A stretch of 64,000 nucleotides of DNA from Silvibacterium bohemicum (GTDB lineage Bacteria > Acidobacteriota > Terriglobia > Terriglobales > Acidobacteriaceae), in assembly GCF_001006305.1 (NCBI RefSeq), contig NZ_LBHJ01000012.1:346231-410230 (forward strand). Reading direction: 5' to 3'. Below the pieces are notes generated by a model, which did no database searches, had not been told where the DNA came from, and worked only from the letters and a program-made list of their open reading frames with translations. Of the stretch, positions 21,271 through 30,859 are shown in pieces. How positions within the stretch are numbered: position 1 is the stretch's first letter; each line of letters begins with the position of its first letter. The translations under genes and the position numbers were made by a program.

Positions 21271-23589
21271 CTACAGCGGCATGTTCACAAAGACGGCGCT
21301 CGAAAAGCGGGAGTAGTTCGGCGGGGTCGAGGCGTCGTACGTGCGGATGTAGTACTGCTCGGTGACGGCTTCGCGGGGAATGCTGAAATTTGCCACGGGG
21401 CTGCGCAGGACGAGATCGGAGTTGGTGCCGGGGCCGAAGGCCCAGTCCCTGCGCCGGACTTCAAAGCCGCCGCCTGTGGGTGGGGTGGCGTTCGCGCTAA
21501 CCGCAATCGCGCTGGTGCTGACTCCAGTGATGGCGAGGCTGGATAGATTGGCGAGTGGGAGCGTGGTCTCCGCCTGCTGCGGCAGCCAGACGTCGGCTGG
21601 AATCGCGCTCGATGTTTTGATGGCGAGGGCATCGGCCCAATCATTGGCGAAGGCGATGACGTACTTGACCACTCCCGGCGCGGTGCAGAGGAGCTCGATG
21701 GCGACCGAGCGCACTACGAGGACGGCATTCAGATTGGCCGAGGCGGAATCGATGGCCAGCACATCGCCGGGCCAGACGTCGCTCTGCGTCTCGAGGTTCC
21801 ATCCGGTGTATGTGCCCTTCCATGCGGCGGCGCGATTGGTGGCGAGATCGAGAATCGCAGTCGCGGCGTTCTCGCAATCGACGGAGCTGCGCGCGGCGGG
21901 GCTGGTGACGGCGCCGATCCATGCCGCGGTGCCGGGGATGGCGCCGCTCACGCTCTCCTGCGCGATGCTGGCTGCGTTGGCGAGACGAGCCACGGCGCGA
22001 TGCGTGGTGCGATAGGAGACGGCGATGACCTCGCCTATCTGCGGGATGCTGGTGGTGTAGAAGTGAACGCGGCCGGTGCGCTCGATCCTGCAGTCCGCGC
22101 CCTGGGCGGTGGTTCCCATGCGGTGCACGATGGTGGTCGCGCCGGGCGGCGTGCTCTCCACCCACACCGGGCCTTGTTGCGAGACTTCGATGCTGGCGAT
22201 GCTGCACTGCAGGCTGCTGCTGTTCAAGACGGCGAGCGTGCATACTCCGGGCGTAGCGGCGATCGAGCCGGAGTAGAGAATTACCGGCGCGGCGGCCACT
22301 CCGCCGGTGGTGTCCTGGACCTCGAATAGCAGGTTCATCGCTAACTGCAGATAGGTTCCGCCGTAGGTATGCGCGCCCGTGTTATCGACCGAGTTGTAGG
22401 TCTGCAGGACGCGCTGTATCTCGTTCGCCGCAATACGTAACCGTAGCGTGTACATATGTCCGGCGGTCGGAGTGAACGAGCTTCCCGCGATTACTCCGTT
22501 GACCAGAGGTGCGATGGATGCCACTCCGCTTGCAGTGGTGATCTCGAAGCCGGCCAGGCAATCGGCGGCGATGAATGCGCCGCTGTAAAGGCCATTCAGT
22601 ATTCCCGACGTGATCGATCCGAACTGGACGCCGCCGGCTTCGAGCACCAGCGAGCCTCCCAGCTCGAGCTGGTTCACCGTCGACACCAGCGTATCGCCCA
22701 TGATGCCGTCGCCGCCGGTGCAGGTGAGGCCCGCAGCGGTGATCGATAGATGCGAGCCGGGATCGCTGACCTGCCAGAGCTGTGGATTGATCGTGGGTTC
22801 CTGGAAGAGATCGATGAGCGGCTTGCTCTTGGATGCGGGAGGGAAGTAGGGCTGCTGGGTGAAGTTGAAGAGGACCGTGATGCCGTCGCCCTCGAAGAAT
22901 TCGGTGACGTAGGCTGCGGGCTCGCTGGGGCCGCAAACGGTGACGTCGTTGGCCAATGCCTTCACCTGTGATGCTTCGAGCTGCGCGAGGCTCAGCGTGC
23001 CGGTGGCTTCGCTGAGCGTGTGAACCACGCTGCCGACGGGCGTTATCGTCACCTGGTTATTCAACGCGCGATAAGCACTTCGAGCTATGGATGCCAGCGC
23101 GCCTGCGTTTTCCGACCAGGTCTGCGCAGGATCGGGCTGGAATTCGCCGATGGTGCCGCTGGATGCCGAGGTAGCAAACGAGATCGCGGTCGATGTCACG
23201 CCCGCATTAAGCGTCTGCAGCAGCTGGCTGGCCGGCTGGGAGTATGCGGCCTGCGACTGTGGAGTCGGCAATCGGCTCAGCAGTACTTCGTCGCTAACCG
23301 CTGCGACGTAGGCCTGGTAGGCTGCTCCCTGGCTATTCTGGCCTAACAGCTGGAGCGCGGGCTCGGTGGGAATATAGCCGGTGAACAGAACGATGCCGCT
23401 GTCGTCGCTCACGATGACGCGGCCATTGCGGGCGGGTGTGGGCAGGACGGATGTGGCCGGCGCAACGGTGAAGCTGCAGAGAGACGGCTCGTTGAGCTTG
23501 CGCGCGATGCTGAATTTTGCATTTGTAACAACGACGGAGGAATAATCGACCGCCCCATGGCCGTCCAGATTGTCAATGGTCAGCTTCAC
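21271..23589 (-). CDS. Phage tail hub/tip-like structural protein
   Basis: GTG start at 23589, with AGGAAGGA upstream; 772 residues. The frame is open further upstream, but there it only shadows the tail-tube gene. The N-terminus (VKLTIDNLDGHGAVDYSS, then FTGYIPTEP) resembles the opening of phage baseplate-hub/tail-tip proteins. The middle part is beta-rich, with a lectin-like stretch (GGSLVLEAGGVQFGSI, YTLRLRIAAN). The C-terminal 100 residues look like a fibronectin-type module. No enzyme motif is visible. It is the last gene of the leftward tail module, 11 bases behind the tube-like gene. Confidence 0.55.
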   Translation of the reverse strand: MKLTIDNLDGHGAVDYSSVVVTNAKFSIARKLNEPSLCSFTVAPATSVLPTPARNGRVIVSDDSGIVLFTGYIPTEPALQLLGQNSQGAAYQAYVAAVSDEVLLSRLPTPQSQAAYSQPASQLLQTLNAGVTSTAISFATSASSGTIGEFQPDPAQTWSENAGALASIARSAYRALNNQVTITPVGSVVHTLSEATGTLSLAQLEASQVKALANDVTVCGPSEPAAYVTEFFEGDGITVLFNFTQQPYFPPASKSKPLIDLFQEPTINPQLWQVSDPGSHLSITAAGLTCTGGDGIMGDTLVSTVNQLELGGSLVLEAGGVQFGSITSGILNGLYSGAFIAADCLAGFEITTASGVASIAPLVNGVIAGSSFTPTAGHMYTLRLRIAANEIQRVLQTYNSVDNTGAHTYGGTYLQLAMNLLFEVQDTTGGVAAAPVILYSGSIAATPGVCTLAVLNSSSLQCSIASIEVSQQGPVWVESTPPGATTIVHRMGTTAQGADCRIERTGRVHFYTTSIPQIGEVIAVSYRTTHRAVARLANAASIAQESVSGAIPGTAAWIGAVTSPAARSSVDCENAATAILDLATNRAAAWKGTYTGWNLETQSDVWPGDVLAIDSASANLNAVLVVRSVAIELLCTAPGVVKYVIAFANDWADALAIKTSSAIPADVWLPQQAETTLPLANLSSLAITGVSTSAIAVSANATPPTGGGFEVRRRDWAFGPGTNSDLVLRSPVANFSIPREAVTEQYYIRTYDASTPPNYSRFSSAVFVNMPL

Positions 23590-23600
23590 TCGATTCCTTC

Positions 23601-24536
23601 CTAAGCCAGCGTCATGGCGCTGGGAAAAAAGCTGCGGAAGCAGACGGCCTGCTGGCCATCGTTCGCGTCGACGACGGGCAGCGCACGGAAAGACGCGCTC
23701 AATGCAACGCGCTCCAGCGGCGCGACCAGCGAAGTGGTTGCCTCCGCTGCGCCGCCGGTTGCCTGCAGACGCGGATAGTAGAAGAGAATGCGCTCGCCCT
23801 GTTCCCCGGGCATCACGAAGAGTCCGGACCACTCCTGGAAGAAGGTTCCACCTTCGCGGTCGACGAATCCCAACACCTGCTGCACGCGCATGGTGCCGGC
23901 CGGCACGCCTGCGATGAGCGGCTCCGCTAATTGCAGCCCACTCGATGTGGCCTGCGAGACGCGAGCCACGTTGAAGGTGACCCGGCGAATGTAATCGGGA
24001 TCGCTGTTCACCGCCGTGGCGCTTTGCACATAGGCTGCGGAGACGCCGCTTCCGACGAAGCCAGTTTGTCCCGCGTAATCGGCATCTACGGCGACGATCA
24101 TGCCCGCGGAAAATCCGGTGGTGCTGCTCATGTAGAGGAAATTGGCCGTAGATCCTGAAGCGGCGAGGTTGACCGCGGTTGCGGCCTTCGAGCCTGATCC
24201 ATTGGGAGCCACGCCAGTTGCGGGCGCCAGCAGGTTCATGTGCTGCGAGCCTGCGGAGAGCGCCATGGTGAGCTTGCTCCAGGTCTTGAAGCGCAGAGAG
24301 ACGGTCGCATCGAGCGTTTCTTTCACCTGGAACTGCGTGACGCCGGGCGAGCCGGTGACGAGTCCCGATGTTTTGCTCAGCGATTTCCGGCTGAAATCTT
24401 CGATCCAGCCGAGATCGATCCACGGCGCAGGTGGTGAGTCGAGTGGGAATTGTCCGTTCACAGAAGGATCGAAGACGGTTGGTGTCTCACCCGCGCGATT
24501 CACGGGAGCGAAGTAGGCACGGACCCGCTGCGTCAC
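23601..24536 (-). CDS. Phage tail-tube-like protein
   Basis: 311 residues from a GTG at 24536 (VTQRVRAYFAPVNRAGETPT). The region about 50-110 (FQVKETLDATVSLRFKTWSKLTMALSAGSQHMNLLAP) has the pattern of tail-tube proteins, and the chain is beta-rich, with a C-terminal VALSASFRALP repeat-like end. The start region has no ribosome-binding site, and its first 50 bases overlap the end of the terminase ORF in another frame. This suggests that a deletion removed the original upstream region, leaving this GTG as start. Identification as tail tube rests on neighbours and overall pattern, so it is moderate. Confidence 0.5.
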   Translation of the reverse strand: MTQRVRAYFAPVNRAGETPTVFDPSVNGQFPLDSPPAPWIDLGWIEDFSRKSLSKTSGLVTGSPGVTQFQVKETLDATVSLRFKTWSKLTMALSAGSQHMNLLAPATGVAPNGSGSKAATAVNLAASGSTANFLYMSSTTGFSAGMIVAVDADYAGQTGFVGSGVSAAYVQSATAVNSDPDYIRRVTFNVARVSQATSSGLQLAEPLIAGVPAGTMRVQQVLGFVDREGGTFFQEWSGLFVMPGEQGERILFYYPRLQATGGAAEATTSLVAPLERVALSASFRALPVVDANDGQQAVCFRSFFPSAMTLA

Positions 24537-25131
24537 CGGTGGGAGGCATGGCCGCGCGCAGTCCCTGCAGCGTCTCGGTGGCGTCGCCCTTCCAGCGCGC
24601 TACCTCCGAACAGTGCAGATTCGTAATCGTCAATCCGCGCCCCGCGTTGGAGTCGGCGGCGCTCTCGACGCGGTACTCGCTATCCAGGGCGGGGAAGGTG
24701 ATCTGCCGCACATTCGAGCGGGCGGTGCGCAGCGCCGCTCCCCATTTTCGATTGGGCAGATGTTCCACAAAACGATGCACGATGCGAAAGATCGACTCCG
24801 CCGCCTCCTGCGTGTGCGCCACCTGCACGGTTAACGTACCCGGCTGAGTGATGGTCTTCAAAAACATGCGCCCCGTAACCCAGGTGCTGATCCCCATCTG
24901 CCTCGCCTTCAGCACGATGTTGCGCGTTCCCCGCCGCTGCTCGTATTCGCGCTGAACGCGGTTGGGGAGCAGCGGGACGTCTCTGCCCGAGCGGTCTCTT
25001 ATCCTCAGCAGAGCTTCGGCGAGGATGATTCCCGCGGTCGTGGCTTCCGTCCGGTAATCCAGTAGCTTTCCCAGCTTCAAAAGCTGGTCGAGTTCATCGT
25101 TCGGCGGGTTGTGTCTCGCATTAGAAGGCAT
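24487..25131 (-). CDS. Terminase large subunit, truncated after the ATPase domain
   Basis: 214 residues, against roughly 450-600 for a complete large terminase. The N-terminal DNA-packaging ATPase part is clear: NIVLKARQMGIST (Walker-A-like, about residues 70-82), VQVAHTQEAAESIFRIVHRF, and NLHCSEVARWKGDATETLQGL, whose SE matches the Walker-B-type Ser-Glu seen in several terminases. After AAMPPTGD the frame loses family similarity, ends in an Arg/Ser-rich tail and stops inside the tail-tube gene. The whole nuclease domain is missing, so packaging activity is not expected. Its start overlaps the stop of the tail-spike gene by 11 bases. Confidence 0.7.
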   Translation of the reverse strand: MPSNARHNPPNDELDQLLKLGKLLDYRTEATTAGIILAEALLRIRDRSGRDVPLLPNRVQREYEQRRGTRNIVLKARQMGISTWVTGRMFLKTITQPGTLTVQVAHTQEAAESIFRIVHRFVEHLPNRKWGAALRTARSNVRQITFPALDSEYRVESAADSNAGRGLTITNLHCSEVARWKGDATETLQGLRAAMPPTGDAAGPCLLRSRESRG

Positions 25132-27418
25132 ACCAGTTGTAGTCCGTGCCGCAGACCAGGGTCCGCTTACCGGCGGCGGAAATCGTCAACGTAGTCGCGG
25201 TCGCTCCCGCATAGTTGATGGCCTGCGAGCTGACCGTCTGCAGCGTTACCGCGTTCGCCGAGGTGTCGGACTTGATGATGGTGAATTCGAGTCCCGCCGG
25301 TGAAGCCTTGTCCGGCCACGCTGTGAAGCAACTCGGCAGGGTCAGCGTCTGCGCTCCGCTCGCTGCGTTGGCGATTACATTCTTATTGGCGCTGGTGAGT
25401 GTGAGAGTGGAGGCCGTGTTCAAGATCGTGCTCAAGGCAATGCCGCCGTTGCTCTTGATCGTCCCCTGGTACGTCACGTTGAAGAAGGGGTTGAGTCCGG
25501 AAAAGTGCCCTTGAAAGATGTCGCCCTGATAGCCCGTGTACATCTGCGCGGCGAAGGCTGGATAAGAAGAAGCGGAGGCGATGGGTGTCGACCACACCCG
25601 CGGCACCGCGCTCGAAGTGTCGTTGATGTTCGCGCCTCCGCTTGAAAAACCCGTAACCTCGGCCGGCTCCAGCGCCTGGAAGTAATTGCCACAGCCGGTC
25701 AGGTGATGAACGCTGGTGAAGGTGGGGGGATTGCCGGAAGCGCCGCCGTAGGTGATCCAATTGACTGCGGAATTCATGCCCAGACAGTCGACATCGGCGA
25801 TGAGCATGTTATTCGTAACCGTGGATGCTACATAAGCCAGGTTCGCGCCGGGAAAGCTGGTCAACTCCGGCCACTGGATATGCCCGCCGTGAATCGCAAT
25901 GCCATTCGCGCCGATGTAGAAGCCGGCTATCGCGGGGCTGTCGGCGTAGGTGTCGGTCCAGACGCTGCCCGATCCGCCTACGTCGTCGATCACGTAATTC
26001 GTAGCGTAGGAAGCATTCGCAGCGGAGCCTGAAGACGCGTTGTTGACGCAGGGGCCCGTCGTGCAGGTATAGGGATATCCGAACCCGTGAATGAGGTAGC
26101 CGGTGATTCCCGTTCCCTCGTTGTAGACCGCAGCGGTCAGCGCATTGCGGACGACGATATCGTCGAGATGACTGTCAATCGCAGTCTTCTGCATGTGGAT
26201 GCCGTAGGCCGGGCGGCTGGATGGTGTGAAGAGGGAGGCGTTATAGCTGACGGTTACATTTCTCAGCAGGAAGTTCGACTGATGCCCGCTGCTTGTCGTC
26301 TCCTCGCCGAGCAGAATGCCTTCGGCTGTCGTATCGTTCACCGTCACATTGTCGATGAGCAAGCCGCGGAACCACTGCATCTCGAATCCGTGCGTGGCAT
26401 TGGTGGCGGCCAGGACGACGAAATCTTTGAAGGTGCAACTTTGGGCCTGCGCGGCATTTCCGAGGTAGAACAGATCGCCGCTGAGATTGGTGGTGATACT
26501 CAATGTTGTGGCTGCGGCACTTCCGGCATTCACCGTTGCGCCGCCGGAGCCAATTAGATTGACGCAGGCTCCGTTGGTCGGCTCCGTCAATGTCGAGGTG
26601 ACCGCGAACGTACCCGGCCCGAGACGCACCGTCGAATTCTTCCCCGATGAGGTCGCAGCACCAAGTGCCGCGCTCCATGCGGAGTTCAATGTCGAATAAG
26701 TCGCGCCGTCTACCGTGATCTCGCCGTTGAGGGTTGCGGCATTCAGTTGACCGCGTATCTCCGCGCTGCTGGTGACGGACAGGCTGGGCGCATTCAACGC
26801 CCCAGTGAGTGCGCCTCCCGTGAGCGGAAGTTGCGCGGCCGCCAGCGTGTCAGCGTAATGCTTGGTGGCGGCCTGGCTGCCGCTTGTTGGATCGCCGTTC
26901 AGTAACAGCGATCCGCTCATCGTGCCGCCGCCAAGCGAGAGATAGCTGCCTGTGATACCGCTGATCGAGTTGTCGACGTAGGACTTCGACACCGCCTGCA
27001 CGGCAACGGTGGCCGGAGCAAGTTGTGCGCGAATCGAAGAGATTGAGGCGGCGGTTGCTGCTGGTACGACCCAATATTCCTTGGTCACTGTCCCGTCGTT
27101 CAGGTGATAGACCGCGGTGTAGTAGGTGCCATCGGGATACGCTCCCTGATTCGGCGCAAGATTGAGCGTTACGGATCCATTCGTGCCGATGGTCGACGCT
27201 ACGCTGCCCGCTGCCACGGCCTGGTTGGTGGCTGTCGAGAAGGCCGGCCAACTCACGACTAAGGTGCCTTGTGCCAAAGATCCGTCGGCGCGATAGATGA
27301 TCCCCTGTACCGACGTGGTCATAACTTGTGCGCTGAGCCTTTCGGGCAACATCGACATCACTAACGCTAGCCCCAGGCTCATTGTTGTCCATGCGCGTCG
27401 TTGCGATCTTGTGGTCAA
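25121..27418 (-). CDS. Secreted beta-helix protein with phage tail-fibre repeats
   Basis: The TTG start at 27418 is chosen because AAGGAG lies 5 bases upstream (27424-27429) and a short basic start leads into a signal peptide (MSLGLALVMSMLPERLSAQ); the ATG at 27493 has no such support. 765 residues. Residues about 30-130 form a carboxypeptidase-regulatory-like opening (GIIYRADGSLAQGTLVVSW). Residues about 135-220 carry tail-fibre repeats (YLSLGGGTMSGSL, LPLTGGALTGAL). Residues about 225-600 form a right-handed beta-helix of pectate-lyase type. A short C-terminal domain follows. Phage fibres normally lack signal peptides, so export through Sec is the odd feature. No polysaccharide-lyase active site could be assigned. 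Confidence 0.7.
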   Translation of the reverse strand: MTTRSQRRAWTTMSLGLALVMSMLPERLSAQVMTTSVQGIIYRADGSLAQGTLVVSWPAFSTATNQAVAAGSVASTIGTNGSVTLNLAPNQGAYPDGTYYTAVYHLNDGTVTKEYWVVPAATAASISSIRAQLAPATVAVQAVSKSYVDNSISGITGSYLSLGGGTMSGSLLLNGDPTSGSQAATKHYADTLAAAQLPLTGGALTGALNAPSLSVTSSAEIRGQLNAATLNGEITVDGATYSTLNSAWSAALGAATSSGKNSTVRLGPGTFAVTSTLTEPTNGACVNLIGSGGATVNAGSAAATTLSITTNLSGDLFYLGNAAQAQSCTFKDFVVLAATNATHGFEMQWFRGLLIDNVTVNDTTAEGILLGEETTSSGHQSNFLLRNVTVSYNASLFTPSSRPAYGIHMQKTAIDSHLDDIVVRNALTAAVYNEGTGITGYLIHGFGYPYTCTTGPCVNNASSGSAANASYATNYVIDDVGGSGSVWTDTYADSPAIAGFYIGANGIAIHGGHIQWPELTSFPGANLAYVASTVTNNMLIADVDCLGMNSAVNWITYGGASGNPPTFTSVHHLTGCGNYFQALEPAEVTGFSSGGANINDTSSAVPRVWSTPIASASSYPAFAAQMYTGYQGDIFQGHFSGLNPFFNVTYQGTIKSNGGIALSTILNTASTLTLTSANKNVIANAASGAQTLTLPSCFTAWPDKASPAGLEFTIIKSDTSANAVTLQTVSSQAINYAGATATTLTISAAGKRTLVCGTDYNWYAF

Positions 27419-27443
27419 GGTGGCTCCTTCGTTCGTTACACGA

Positions 27444-27476
27444 CAAAAGAAAAGGAGACGCCTGCTCTGCGTCTCC
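27444..27476 (-). terminator. Terminator-like hairpin in the leader of the tail-spike gene (possible attenuator)
   Basis: On the minus strand GGAGACGC (27476-27469) pairs with GCGTCTCC (27461-27454) across a 7-base loop and is followed by TTTTCTTTT. The spike gene's ribosome-binding site lies only about 20 bases further on, leaving little room for another promoter. Transcription of the spike gene therefore probably has to pass this site. It could equally be the plain end of the sigma-like operon, if a promoter overlaps it. Confidence 0.6.
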
Positions 27477-27501
27477 CTTAGTTTGTTTCTCACTCTTAAA
27501 T

Positions 27502-27540
27502 TTAGAATATCAAGTTATTACCTAATTCTAGGCCAATCAT
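27502..27540 (-). other. Possible 12-codon leader ORF ahead of the hairpin
   Basis: On the minus strand an ATG at 27540, with AGGA 6 bases upstream (27547-27550), opens the mini-ORF MIGLELGNNLIF and stops at TAA 27504-27502, 26 bases before the hairpin. The surrounding 27477-27593 is clearly AT-richer than the neighbours and should contain a promoter. A leader peptide is only a hypothesis; short ORFs are frequent in AT-rich DNA. Confidence 0.2.
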
Positions 27541-27593
27541 TTTTATTCCTATAAGTTGCTAACTATCCGCTACTTGCGGTGGTAGTTCGGTGG

Positions 27594-28067
27594 TCAACTA
27601 TCTTGACAGCTTTGTCCATAAGCCGGGTCCAGCAATTCTGCTTCAATGAAAATCGCGGTGAGGCGGTCCAGGACATCGGCGTACTTGCGAGTTACCGAGC
27701 GCAAACTTTGGCCTGTTAGTTCTGCGGTCTCGGCCTGCGTGTACTCCTGAAGAGTGATCCGCGCCACCAATTCTTGCGATGGTGCATCCAAGCGCATCAG
27801 GCATCTCTCCACGTCGATCACAAAGACAACCGCGTCTTCGAAGTTTCTAACCCGGCTGCACGATGCCCTGCCTCGAAAGACGCCTCGACTCAGCAGGGAA
27901 GGAACTCTTCCCATGTCCATGGATATACGCAGATACCGTCGCAGCAGCGCTTCGGTATGCTTGCGATAAAAGGCCGCGCCGCTGAGCGGAGCTGGCCGTA
28001 GACATGTCGGCCGGACGCATGAATTTGTGCTGGCCCACACGTGGGGGAGCGTCAGCGCCGTGCTCAT
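27594..28067 (-). CDS. Sigma-70-region-4-like regulator
   Basis: 157 residues from the ATG at 28067, chosen because GGAGGTG lies 4 bases upstream (28072-28078). Residues about 76-140 resemble the end of sigma-70 proteins: FEDAVVFVIDVERCLMRL, then QELVARITLQEYTQAETAELTGQSL with the region-4 helix-turn-helix, then SVTRKYADVLDRL. There is no clear region 2, so it may act as a transcription activator rather than a true sigma factor. The start overlaps the stop of the zinc-ribbon gene (ATGA, 28064-28067). Downstream, after a terminator-like hairpin, lie the tail genes, which it may control. Confidence 0.65.
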   Translation of the reverse strand: MSTALTLPHVWASTNSCVRPTCLRPAPLSGAAFYRKHTEALLRRYLRISMDMGRVPSLLSRGVFRGRASCSRVRNFEDAVVFVIDVERCLMRLDAPSQELVARITLQEYTQAETAELTGQSLRSVTRKYADVLDRLTAIFIEAELLDPAYGQSCQDS

Positions 28068-28261
28068 TGCACACCTCCCCGTGCGGGAGTAGCTTGCATT
28101 GTGTGCTTGCACGGCCTGCCGCGTCTTCGCTTTATCATGCGGGGAAAGCTACTCAACTTACCGGCGCAGGCGGCGCAGTAGATGTCCATCCTGTCTTGTC
28201 TACGAAACCATAGGCAGCCGCATGCTTCGCAGACTTTTAAGTACACTCTTAGATAAGTCAT
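28064..28261 (-). CDS. Small zinc-ribbon protein with AT-hook-like tail
   Basis: 65 residues, with a strong GGGAGGTAAG before the ATG at 28261. Cys11/Cys14 (CEAC) and Cys29/Cys32 (CAAC) form a CxxC...CxxC zinc-ribbon pattern. Residues 45-52 (RRRGRPCK) contain the GRP core of an AT-hook, flanked by basic residues. Together this suggests DNA or RNA polymerase contact. Translation is coupled to the sigma-like protein downstream, so the two probably work together as regulator and partner. Confidence 0.65.
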   Translation of the reverse strand: MTYLRVYLKVCEACGCLWFRRQDRMDIYCAACAGKLSSFPRMIKRRRGRPCKHTMQATPARGGVQ

Positions 28262-28710: not shown

Positions 28711-28741
28711 TTGAGCAAACCCGCAGACTGCGGTGTATAGC
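28711..28741 (+). promoter_or_regulatory. Candidate repressor promoter with operator palindrome in the spacer
   Basis: TTGAGC (28711-28716) and TGTATA (28734-28739) are 17 bases apart. The spacer contains the perfect palindrome CCGCAGACTGCGG (28721-28733). Transcription would start about 14 bases before the repressor ATG. The position suits autorepression by the XRE/S24-like protein. Both hexamers deviate from consensus. Confidence 0.35.
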
Positions 28742-28759
28742 TCAAAGAAAACTCCCTCC

Positions 28760-29476
28760 ATGAATTTCACACAACTCCATGAGCGTCTTCGTTCTGAAAT
28801 CAAACGTTCCATCGATCGCGGAGACCTTACCGGCACTTCGCTTGCTGCTCGAACAGGTTTGCAACCATCCCACATATCCAACTTTCTTCATAAGAAGCGC
28901 AACCTGAGTTCATCCGCGCTCGATCGGGTTTTGGAGGCGCTGTCGATGGACGTCGATCACCTTATTCCGTCTCGCGAGCCGAGCCACTCGCGGGGAGCTC
29001 CGGGTTTTTCCGATGGTCCCGTCAATCATGTTCCTCTGGTCTCGCCTACAGTCGCAGCAAACTCCCCGCTTATTACTCCTTCGCTCACGCTTGAGAGCAT
29101 CGAAATTACCGGCATGAGGCTCGAAGATCTCCGGCCTGGCCTAAGCCACGTTCGCCGGAATTGGCAGCGCTTCGTGGCTCTTCGCCTCAGTGCCGATCAA
29201 GCGCTTCCCATGTCTCCGATCCTTCGGCCGCAGTCCATCGTGATTGTCGACCGGCACTACATCTCGCTTACGCCACACGATCCGCACCAGCCAACCATCT
29301 ATGGAGTAACTCTGAATGGCTCCGTTGTTTTTCGCTATTTGACGCTCGATCCGCGGTGTCTCATCCTGCGTCCTCACGTGCTGAAATATCCGGTAGAACT
29401 GCTTGAGATCGGTGACGGCAGATCTCCGTATCAGTTCATCGTCGGGCGCGTGGCGATTTGCATCTCGCAGCTGTAG
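28760..29476 (+). CDS. XRE-family repressor with degenerate S24-like domain
   Basis: 238 residues from the ATG at 28760. Residues about 5-65 are a Cro/CI-type helix-turn-helix (GTSLAARTGLQPSHISNFLHKKRNLSSSALDRVLEAL). Residues about 130-238 follow the LexA/CI C-terminal (S24) fold: FVALRLSADQALPMSPILRPQSIVIVDRHY, then a strand region ending FIVGRVAI. The catalytic Ser and Lys of self-cleaving S24 proteins are not evident: the usual GDSM is replaced by ADQALPM, and the later Lys by Phe-Arg. It may therefore act as a non-cleavable repressor or ligand sensor. It is divergent from the tail module's regulators. Confidence 0.7.
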   Translation: MNFTQLHERLRSEIKRSIDRGDLTGTSLAARTGLQPSHISNFLHKKRNLSSSALDRVLEALSMDVDHLIPSREPSHSRGAPGFSDGPVNHVPLVSPTVAANSPLITPSLTLESIEITGMRLEDLRPGLSHVRRNWQRFVALRLSADQALPMSPILRPQSIVIVDRHYISLTPHDPHQPTIYGVTLNGSVVFRYLTLDPRCLILRPHVLKYPVELLEIGDGRSPYQFIVGRVAICISQL

Positions 29477-29608: not shown

Positions 29609-29833
29609 ATGGAACAGGCAGCAAATTCCCCTAGTGGAGCGCGTCGCAACGAGGACATCGCTCTCGATCTCCTCAAGTTTGTGGCGTCCACGGCAGGTGT
29701 CGGTCGCGCGGCCGCTCCGTCCACTGGCTTCGCCGTGCCTAGCGCCGCCAAGGCCGAGGATCACGTCAATCATCTGCTCGAGCTTTACACCAAGTGCCTG
29801 AAGGTCGTAGAGGGCGAGGAGCCGGCGCTTTAG
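29609..29833 (+). CDS. Small protein of unknown function
   Basis: 74 residues, with GGAGGA upstream of the ATG at 29609. No signal peptide. The middle is Ala/Ser-rich, and the C-terminal helix is amphipathic (EDHVNHLLELYTKCLKVVEGEE). It lies 13 bases before the Gfo/Idh-type dehydrogenase in the same direction, so it is probably co-transcribed. I know no family; a helical adaptor or regulator is possible. Confidence 0.5.
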   Translation: MEQAANSPSGARRNEDIALDLLKFVASTAGVGRAAAPSTGFAVPSAAKAEDHVNHLLELYTKCLKVVEGEEPAL

Positions 29834-29845
29834 CGCGAGCGATCA

Positions 29846-30859
29846 GTGAGCTCTCCGACCGTAAATGTCGTTGTCTGCGGCGCCGGCGCTTTCGGCCGCA
29901 ACCATCTCCGCATCTATCGCGAACTCCAGCAGGGCGGGCAGCCTGTCCGCCTCTCGGCCATCGTCGACTCCGATGCCTCGCGTCTTGCTGCGCTCAAAGA
30001 GGAATTTTCCGTTCCGGCCTTCGCAACCCTGGCAGGCTGTTTGGAGGCGCGCGGCAACGGGGAGATCAAAATCGATGCCGCGTCGGTCTGCGTTCCGACC
30101 TCGGAGCACGAAGCGGTGGCTGCTCCGCTGCTGGAAGCGGGCATCGACCTGCTCGTTGAAAAGCCCATTGCCGCCACCAAGGAGCAAGCCGCGAAACTCA
30201 CAGCCCTCGCCCAACAGCACGGGCGGATATTGCAAGTGGGGCATCTTGAGCGATTCAACCCAGCGGTGGTTGCTATCCGGCCGTGGCTGAATCGGCCGAT
30301 GTTCTTCGAGGCTCATCGCCTCAGCATCTTCACGCCCCGCGCTCTAGATGTCGATGTGGTCCTCGATCTGATGATCCACGACCTCGACATCGTGCTCAGC
30401 ATTACGCAGTCGCCGGTGCGCGATCTGCATGCTGTGGGTCTGCCCATCCTCTCCGGGAAGGTGGACATCGCGAACGTACGCATTGAGTTCGAGTCCGGAT
30501 GTGTCGCGAATTTCACGGCCAGCCGGGTCAGCACGGAGAAGGTTCGCAAGCTGCGCTTCTTTCAGCCGCACCAGTACATCTCGATCGATTACGCCCGCCG
30601 GGACCTGCTGGTGATCGATGTCGATCCCAAAGCCGCGCCCAATCCCAGCGGACTGCCCGCAGGCCTGGCCTTCCACAAGCCGGTGGTTCAACCGGGCGAG
30701 CCGCTGCTGCTGGAGATCGAGTCTTTTCTGGAGTCGGTGCGAACACGAGAGACGCCGCGAGTCTCGGCTCAGGATGGGCAGGCTGCGCTGGCTCTGGCCC
30801 TCGACATTAACGCCGCCATCGCGGAGCACGCACAGCGCGCCGGTCTCGACCGCTTCTGA
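29846..30859 (+). CDS. Gfo/Idh/MocA-family oxidoreductase, GnnA-like (UDP-GlcNAc 3-dehydrogenase)
   Basis: GTG start at 29846; 337 residues. The Rossmann fold opens with VNVVVCGAGAFGRNHLRIY, followed by EKPIAATKEQA, the family's EKP motif. Segments LQVGHLERFNPAV, FEAHRLSIFTPRALDVDVVLDLMIHDLDIVLS and GCVANFTASRVS are those I associate with the GnnA branch. This branch oxidises the 3-hydroxyl of UDP-GlcNAc on the way to 2,3-diamino-lipid A. No gnnB aminotransferase or lpx gene is in the window, so the assignment rests on sequence pattern alone. The family is certain; the substrate is moderately likely. Confidence 0.75.
   Translation: MSSPTVNVVVCGAGAFGRNHLRIYRELQQGGQPVRLSAIVDSDASRLAALKEEFSVPAFATLAGCLEARGNGEIKIDAASVCVPTSEHEAVAAPLLEAGIDLLVEKPIAATKEQAAKLTALAQQHGRILQVGHLERFNPAVVAIRPWLNRPMFFEAHRLSIFTPRALDVDVVLDLMIHDLDIVLSITQSPVRDLHAVGLPILSGKVDIANVRIEFESGCVANFTASRVSTEKVRKLRFFQPHQYISIDYARRDLLVIDVDPKAAPNPSGLPAGLAFHKPVVQPGEPLLLEIESFLESVRTRETPRVSAQDGQAALALALDINAAIAEHAQRAGLDRF

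Follow-up and report, generated by a model that had tools for sequence, protein, structure and literature searches.

Is a group of phage-like tail genes with no capsid gene beside it a device that its host has kept, or is it what remains of something larger? The question is raised by positions 21271 to 28261 of the window (the whole 64,000-nucleotide stretch of Silvibacterium bohemicum contig NZ_LBHJ01000012.1 that was analysed), which the original prediction described as a headless tail module, either a decaying prophage or a domesticated tail-like system. Read along the minus strand from 28261 to 21271, the genes encode in order a Cys-rich protein, a sigma-like protein, a spike-like protein, a 214-aa terminase frame, a tube protein and a protein in the hub position, and the GC content of the stretch (0.57–0.63) is similar to that of its surroundings. 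The HTH gene and its small neighbour on the plus strand are part of the same locus, and the expectation that the module has its own regulators is borne out, both the sigma-70 region-4-like protein and the divergent HTH regulator belonging to it. The features and the flanking host genes are:

29846–30859, plus strand: Gfo/Idh/MocA-type oxidoreductase, flanking host gene, the conserved left border
29609–29833, plus strand: f16, a small conserved gene that adjoins the HTH regulator in relatives
28733–29476, plus strand: divergent regulator, HTH with an S24-like C-terminal domain lacking the Ser-Lys dyad (phrog_4, 7e-7)
28064–28261, minus strand: small Cys-rich (zinc-ribbon-like) protein, 65 aa, with homologues at the same position in genomes G001 and G027
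27594–28112, minus strand: sigma-70 region-4-like regulator, 172 aa (Pfam PF08281, Sigma70_r4_2, E 4e-4, below cut-off; phrog_1740, 5e-4)
25121–27493, minus strand: spike-like protein, 790-aa ORF, probable start later than 27493
24487–25131, minus strand: truncated large terminase, 214-aa frame with the N-terminal ATPase part, about 200 codons (phrog_2, E 1.1e-5)
24528–24549, minus strand: deletion junction, with terminase (AMPPTGD) in one frame and the tube 5' end (PPVTQRV) in another
23601–24536, minus strand: predicted major tail tube protein, 5'-truncated
21271–23586, minus strand: protein in tail-hub/tip position, 771 aa
20156–21154, minus strand: ATP-grasp flanking host gene, the right border in the window's genus (Pfam RimK, 5e-7)

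The terminase fragment, tube, hub and sigma-like proteins are approximately 61–82% identical to single-copy relatives in the genus with the order kept and, judged from the sequences, this identity together with the shared order is more than chance would produce. The sigma-like gene is kept in most copies, intact and reduced. The spike-like protein, with a signal-peptide-like N-terminus (..TMSLGLALVMSMLPERLSAQ..), has no family match among the Pfam and PHROGs profiles; in intact relatives it is usually about 800–1700 aa long, and the window copy lacks the middle part. The signal-peptide-like N-terminus also occurs in relatives and is odd for a phage structural protein. For what had been called a hub/tip-like protein, an open frame does stand in the hub position, but its 1050-aa ORF is over-extended, with alignment to relatives placing the start of the gene at 23586 and giving 771 aa. 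The protein belongs to no recognised family and has no match in the PDB or the PHROGs profiles, so the label “hub” rests on position. A terminator-like hairpin lies at 27451–27479, between the sigma-like gene and the spike, the frequency of scan matches being no higher than in shuffled sequences; a promoter scan gave nothing beyond what shuffled sequences give, and a search for direct repeats around the module gave no convincing att pair.

The origin of the arrangement becomes apparent when the window is compared with its congeners. In G001, G002 and G006, all of the same genus, the terminase is about 500 aa long and the tube lies 8–9 kb downstream; between the homologous breakpoints G001 has 8279 bp (about 8.28 kb) that are absent from the window. 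At the junction the terminase breaks off at LQGLRAAMPPTGD, the tube resuming at PPVTQRVRAYFAP, and about a dozen bases make sense in both frames, as might be left by a deletion between two short stretches that resembled each other. The tube ORF has thereby come to lack its own first ~14 codons and its native start codon, and the window copy lacks the capsid, the portal and the terminase nuclease. Since these three are gone, no particle can form in the window strain. Relatives of the terminase fragment, which sits between the spike and tube genes, are 55–73% identical to it and usually about 460–640 aa long. With the N-terminal part of a large terminase at 25131–24487, the stretch retains a trace of the packaging machinery, and its gene set goes beyond tail functions. 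The long reading frames are open, as had been proposed, although the tube has lost its start and the terminase is truncated.

The deletion is known from the assembly sequence, and the apparent loss may be an assembly artefact; against this, the junction lies well inside an 883-kb contig and no capsid gene occurs elsewhere in the window's nearly complete genome. We are close to certain that the window copy is a broken remnant, and read the module as a phage-derived head-and-tail cluster after an internal deletion of ~8 kb; the part of the original prediction that spoke of decay is confirmed by this deletion, the truncated terminase and the tube without a start. The window tube and hub are no more diverged from their congeners than the intact copies are from one another, so that the deletion is probably not old.

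The tube-like protein of the original prediction can be placed more precisely at the level of predicted structure. An AlphaFold2 model built on 25 sequences reached a pLDDT of 77; Foldseek gave the tail tube of phage Mystique as its best match (E 4e-9), and VIA-align placed the tubes of Bxb1 (Z 13.7), Chi, JBD30 (12.1) and SPR on top, with Z of 11–14, well above unrelated rows. The model thus indicates a siphophage tail-tube fold, common to the window tube and the tubes of Bxb1, Chi, JBD30, Mystique and SPR, whereas a match to these tubes at the sequence level is absent from the PDB and PHROGs profiles. Sequence profiles of the tube and of the capsid candidate (MCP) run against the PDB returned nothing usable. 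The model of the capsid candidate has a pLDDT of 38, too low to establish an HK97 fold, and Foldseek ranks HK97-fold capsids first for it (best SPO1, E 0.018), a ranking that would lend it weak support; since the assignment draws on this poor model, on position and on motif-like similarity, the protein is kept as a candidate.

What the window has lost can be read from the intact copies. The 8.3 kb between the breakpoints in G001 hold the terminase C-terminus, a HipA-like kinase, DUF3037, a portal, a protein that only its position marks as a protease candidate, a coiled-coil protein, the capsid candidate, a head-tail adaptor and further connectors. Profile matches in the intact cluster were obtained for the kinase (PF20613, 2.5e-10), DUF3037 (1e-17), the portal (PF04860, 1e-54), the head-tail adaptor (phrog_442, 8e-15) and the terminase (7e-20). 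The HipA-like kinase and DUF3037 pair lies between terminase and portal in most copies (L041:10989-12732). The capsid candidate was found in 105 of 300 relatives, namely 104 of the 180 sampled Acidobacteriaceae genomes and 1 of the 120 outside the family, as a single copy in each genome (a contig-split match being the one exception) and with 61–90% identity; the loci named come from Silvibacterium, Terriglobus, Edaphobacter, Granulicella, Acidipila, Acidobacterium, Terracidiphilus and others. The genes vary little in length (tube about 324 aa, hub about 771, f17 about 144, f25 about 72). The left border consists of the divergent HTH regulator, the small gene and the Gfo-type oxidoreductase, and the right border in most genera of purE-purK and sucB-lipB-lpd-hemB; of the 54 loci that extend far enough to include the hub, 36 have purE no more than 4 kb beyond the hub gene. 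An Edaphobacter/Granulicella group (19 of 80 loci) has a rearranged interior, in which spike, terminase and kinase follow the tube.

The absence of sheath, tape-measure and baseplate-wedge genes, which had been remarked on, is upheld. In 43 of 44 loci the distance between the tube and hub genes is −4 to 175 bp, which leaves no place for a tape-measure gene there. In the sole copy outside the family (G285) a tape-measure-like frame of 115 aa stands between hub and tube (L194:6687-7034); the family clusters lack it. In Acidipila rosea G047 (L005, L059-L060) the terminase is apparently split by a frame change, a sequence error or a further decay step, and the cluster also occurs on MAG contigs labelled Verrucomicrobia and Rhodanobacteraceae (L141, L153), which are probably mis-binned. 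A capsid gene about 70% identical to that of the cluster is carried by three IMG/VR contigs of 74–214 kb with a phage-like gene set (L190:10001-10966, L192, L193), with no further cluster gene within 21 kb around it; these sequences point to gene exchange between large phages and the element.

With the intact form at hand, we can ask whether the window copy is a domesticated tail-only device, such as a tailocin or an injection-like apparatus, kept for a function of its own. The open tube and hub frames, and their divergence at or below that among intact copies, would be expected of such a device, and in two reduced loci deletions have joined the secretory N-terminus of the spike to the hub without a break in the reading frame: G003 (L306:5553-7925) has a 790-aa fusion of the spike N-terminus with hub residues 186–772, and G089, of another genus, has a 995-aa spike-hub fusion (L314:10272-13259). 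The tube, however, has no native start and a dead terminase fragment stands ahead of it, sheath, wedge and tape measure are absent, relatives carry the complete head genes, and the reduced congeners differ in the pieces they keep: G008 retains sigma, f25, the N-terminus of the spike and just the last stretch of the hub, and G005 sigma and f25, so neither has a tube and there is little or no hub. Elsewhere, G022, G036 and G057 keep the regulators and the spike N-terminus, and transposase-like genes are inserted between the regulators in reduced loci of other genera (L308:14812-15756, L312:15038-15973). The rpoB tree makes G003 the sister of the intact G006 and places G000 at the base of the genus. 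Since the reduced copies differ in their deletion end points and G003 is sister to an intact genome, the losses are recurrent and unlike one another, and the comparison of sequences argues that headlessness reflects recurrent decay and not a conserved tail device. A search for the set in a form conserved without head genes found none, the set occurring sporadically or within complete elements, and we reject the tail-only device as highly improbable. The HTH regulator is still present in 15 of 22 searched genomes without an intact cluster (2 of the 22 from outside the family).

It remains to consider what kind of element the deletion struck. Among the 180 sampled family genomes, 76, some of them incomplete, have either a reduced element or none. 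Across 38 genomes, distances correlate with those of rpoB with a Mantel r of 0.75 for the MCP, 0.72 for the connector and 0.62 for the tube (permutation p 1e-4), and the element and rpoB trees share the main deep bipartition; yet of the 21 element splits with good support, 9 disagree with rpoB splits that are themselves well supported, which means that inheritance departs from strict verticality or that rpoB is too weak a marker by itself. Nonsynonymous divergence is far below synonymous divergence throughout (MCP dN of about 0.09–0.11 against dS of about 1; tube 0.13–0.31), the ratios being rough as dS is near saturation. The complete cluster, head genes included, is apparently a single-copy, vertically inherited family element under purifying selection, unlike an ordinary prophage, and the hunch of domestication, which fails for the tail module, fits the complete cluster. 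That the parent element is both phage-derived and vertically inherited seems to us likely.

Most of these data also bear on a rival account, in which a family-specific temperate phage has repeatedly integrated at one attachment site and the window holds a decayed lysogen. The element has indeed been published as Acidobacteria proviruses. Eichorst et al. 2018 (PMC5900883) drew it as provirus cluster 153 and called it likely active; the identity follows from T. roseus NC_018014 at 150–180 kb (L139 at 154–175 kb), KBS 89 at 60–90 kb (L145) and Ellin345 at 5.15–5.19 Mb (G040). A Terriglobales provirus group (ii)/VC_349_0 is said to resemble the Ellin345 provirus (PMC11924767). The related contigs in IMG/VR and the partial conflict with the rpoB tree would also suit a phage. 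Against it stand the single copy per genome, the broad correlation with rpoB distances over 38 genomes, flanks that are constant across genera, and a comparison with 50,697 isolate-phage records, none of which matched the capsid or the tube. In addition, the intact loci that were read contained nothing recognisable as an integrase or replication gene from HTH to purE, where some cluster families have no profile match, nor was a recognisable lysis gene found in those loci. We consider recurrent lysogeny unlikely. Relative to the published proviruses, our reading is of one copy at a fixed locus, mostly vertical, with no integrase found and with the window copy deleted; the provirus itself was already known, and the vertical, GTA-like reading appears to be new, a search of the literature outside subscription titles having found no paper that treats the element as either.

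The gene transfer agent of Rhodobacter capsulatus (RcGTA) includes a tape measure, and additional loci of it are scattered. By description and not by sequence, the element is set apart from RcGTA by the pairing of a HipA-like kinase with DUF3037, by regulators of its own (S24-like and sigma-like) and by the lack of a tape measure. It resembles RcGTA and the other alphaproteobacterial type I GTAs (Rhodogtaviriformidae) in being a compact chromosomal head-and-tail cluster that co-diversifies with its host and frequently decays (PMC9662315, in part). When the criteria for GTAs (viriforms) from PMC9662315 are applied to the intact clusters, we find caudoviricete-derived proteins (terminase, portal and head-tail adaptor by profile, tube by fold), a genome fully endogenised at a fixed chromosomal locus in one copy, and mostly vertical inheritance with co-diversification, for which the Mantel correlations, with their conflicting splits, are not a strict congruence test. 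The integrase and own replication genes that would accompany the structural module of a temperate prophage were not recognised in the intact loci read, and the conserved tail-only locus of a tailocin or contractile injection system is not seen, relatives having terminase, portal and capsid candidate and reduced copies differing. The genomic profile of the intact copies is thus suggestive of a gene transfer agent rather than an ordinary prophage.

The explanation that we favor, and regard as probable, is that the module is a deletion remnant of a head-and-tail cluster that occupies one Acidobacteriaceae locus and is mostly vertically inherited. Intact copies would make a virus-like particle with an HK97-type head and a tail without a recognisable tape-measure gene, the particle would package host DNA and so work as a gene transfer agent, and the divergent HTH regulator and sigma-like protein would control transcription. 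Whether the intact clusters are working gene transfer agents is a more tentative matter, and we hold it as plausible, somewhat short of probable. The intact cluster might instead be a domesticated capsid structure that serves something other than DNA transfer, for instance as a nanocompartment or a stress device with the HipA-like kinase. The presence of the kinase and DUF3037 inside the head operon in most copies, as well as the tube-hub gap without a tape-measure gene, would be in keeping with such a role, but the conserved terminase and portal imply DNA packaging, and we find this account rather improbable.

The regulator offers a further view of how the element may be controlled. Among the HTH homologues compared (window 28733–29476, L305-L317, L322-L347), the C-terminal domain is S24-like (Pfam PF00717, E 0.003 in the outgroup G285 and 0.011 in G040, both below cut-off). 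Many members of one clade keep a Ser (..GMSMYP..) and a Lys (..TVKYV..) where the self-cleavage dyad would sit, and both are lost in every member of the window's clade with letters at those columns. Since the dyad is lost, homology to LexA and CI predicts a regulator that stays uncleaved on DNA damage; cleavage of the window protein is accordingly unlikely on this analysis and SOS induction improbable. The occurrence of cleavable-looking and dyad-less S24-like forms in sister clades makes host takeover of a prophage regulator testable.

We found no report of a GTA in the phylum of the Acidobacteriaceae. It is plausible, and we put it forward tentatively, that the family has a functional GTA of independent origin from known GTAs, without a canonical tape measure, tied to the HipA-like kinase/DUF3037 pair and, in one clade, to an S24-like regulator without the dyad, by which control would have moved away from DNA damage and come under host signals. 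How elements of this kind die can be seen in the reduced copies. Should the intact clusters be GTAs, abundant soil bacteria own a built-in route of gene exchange that has hitherto been filed as prophage, and peat and soil virome DNA may hold such particles.
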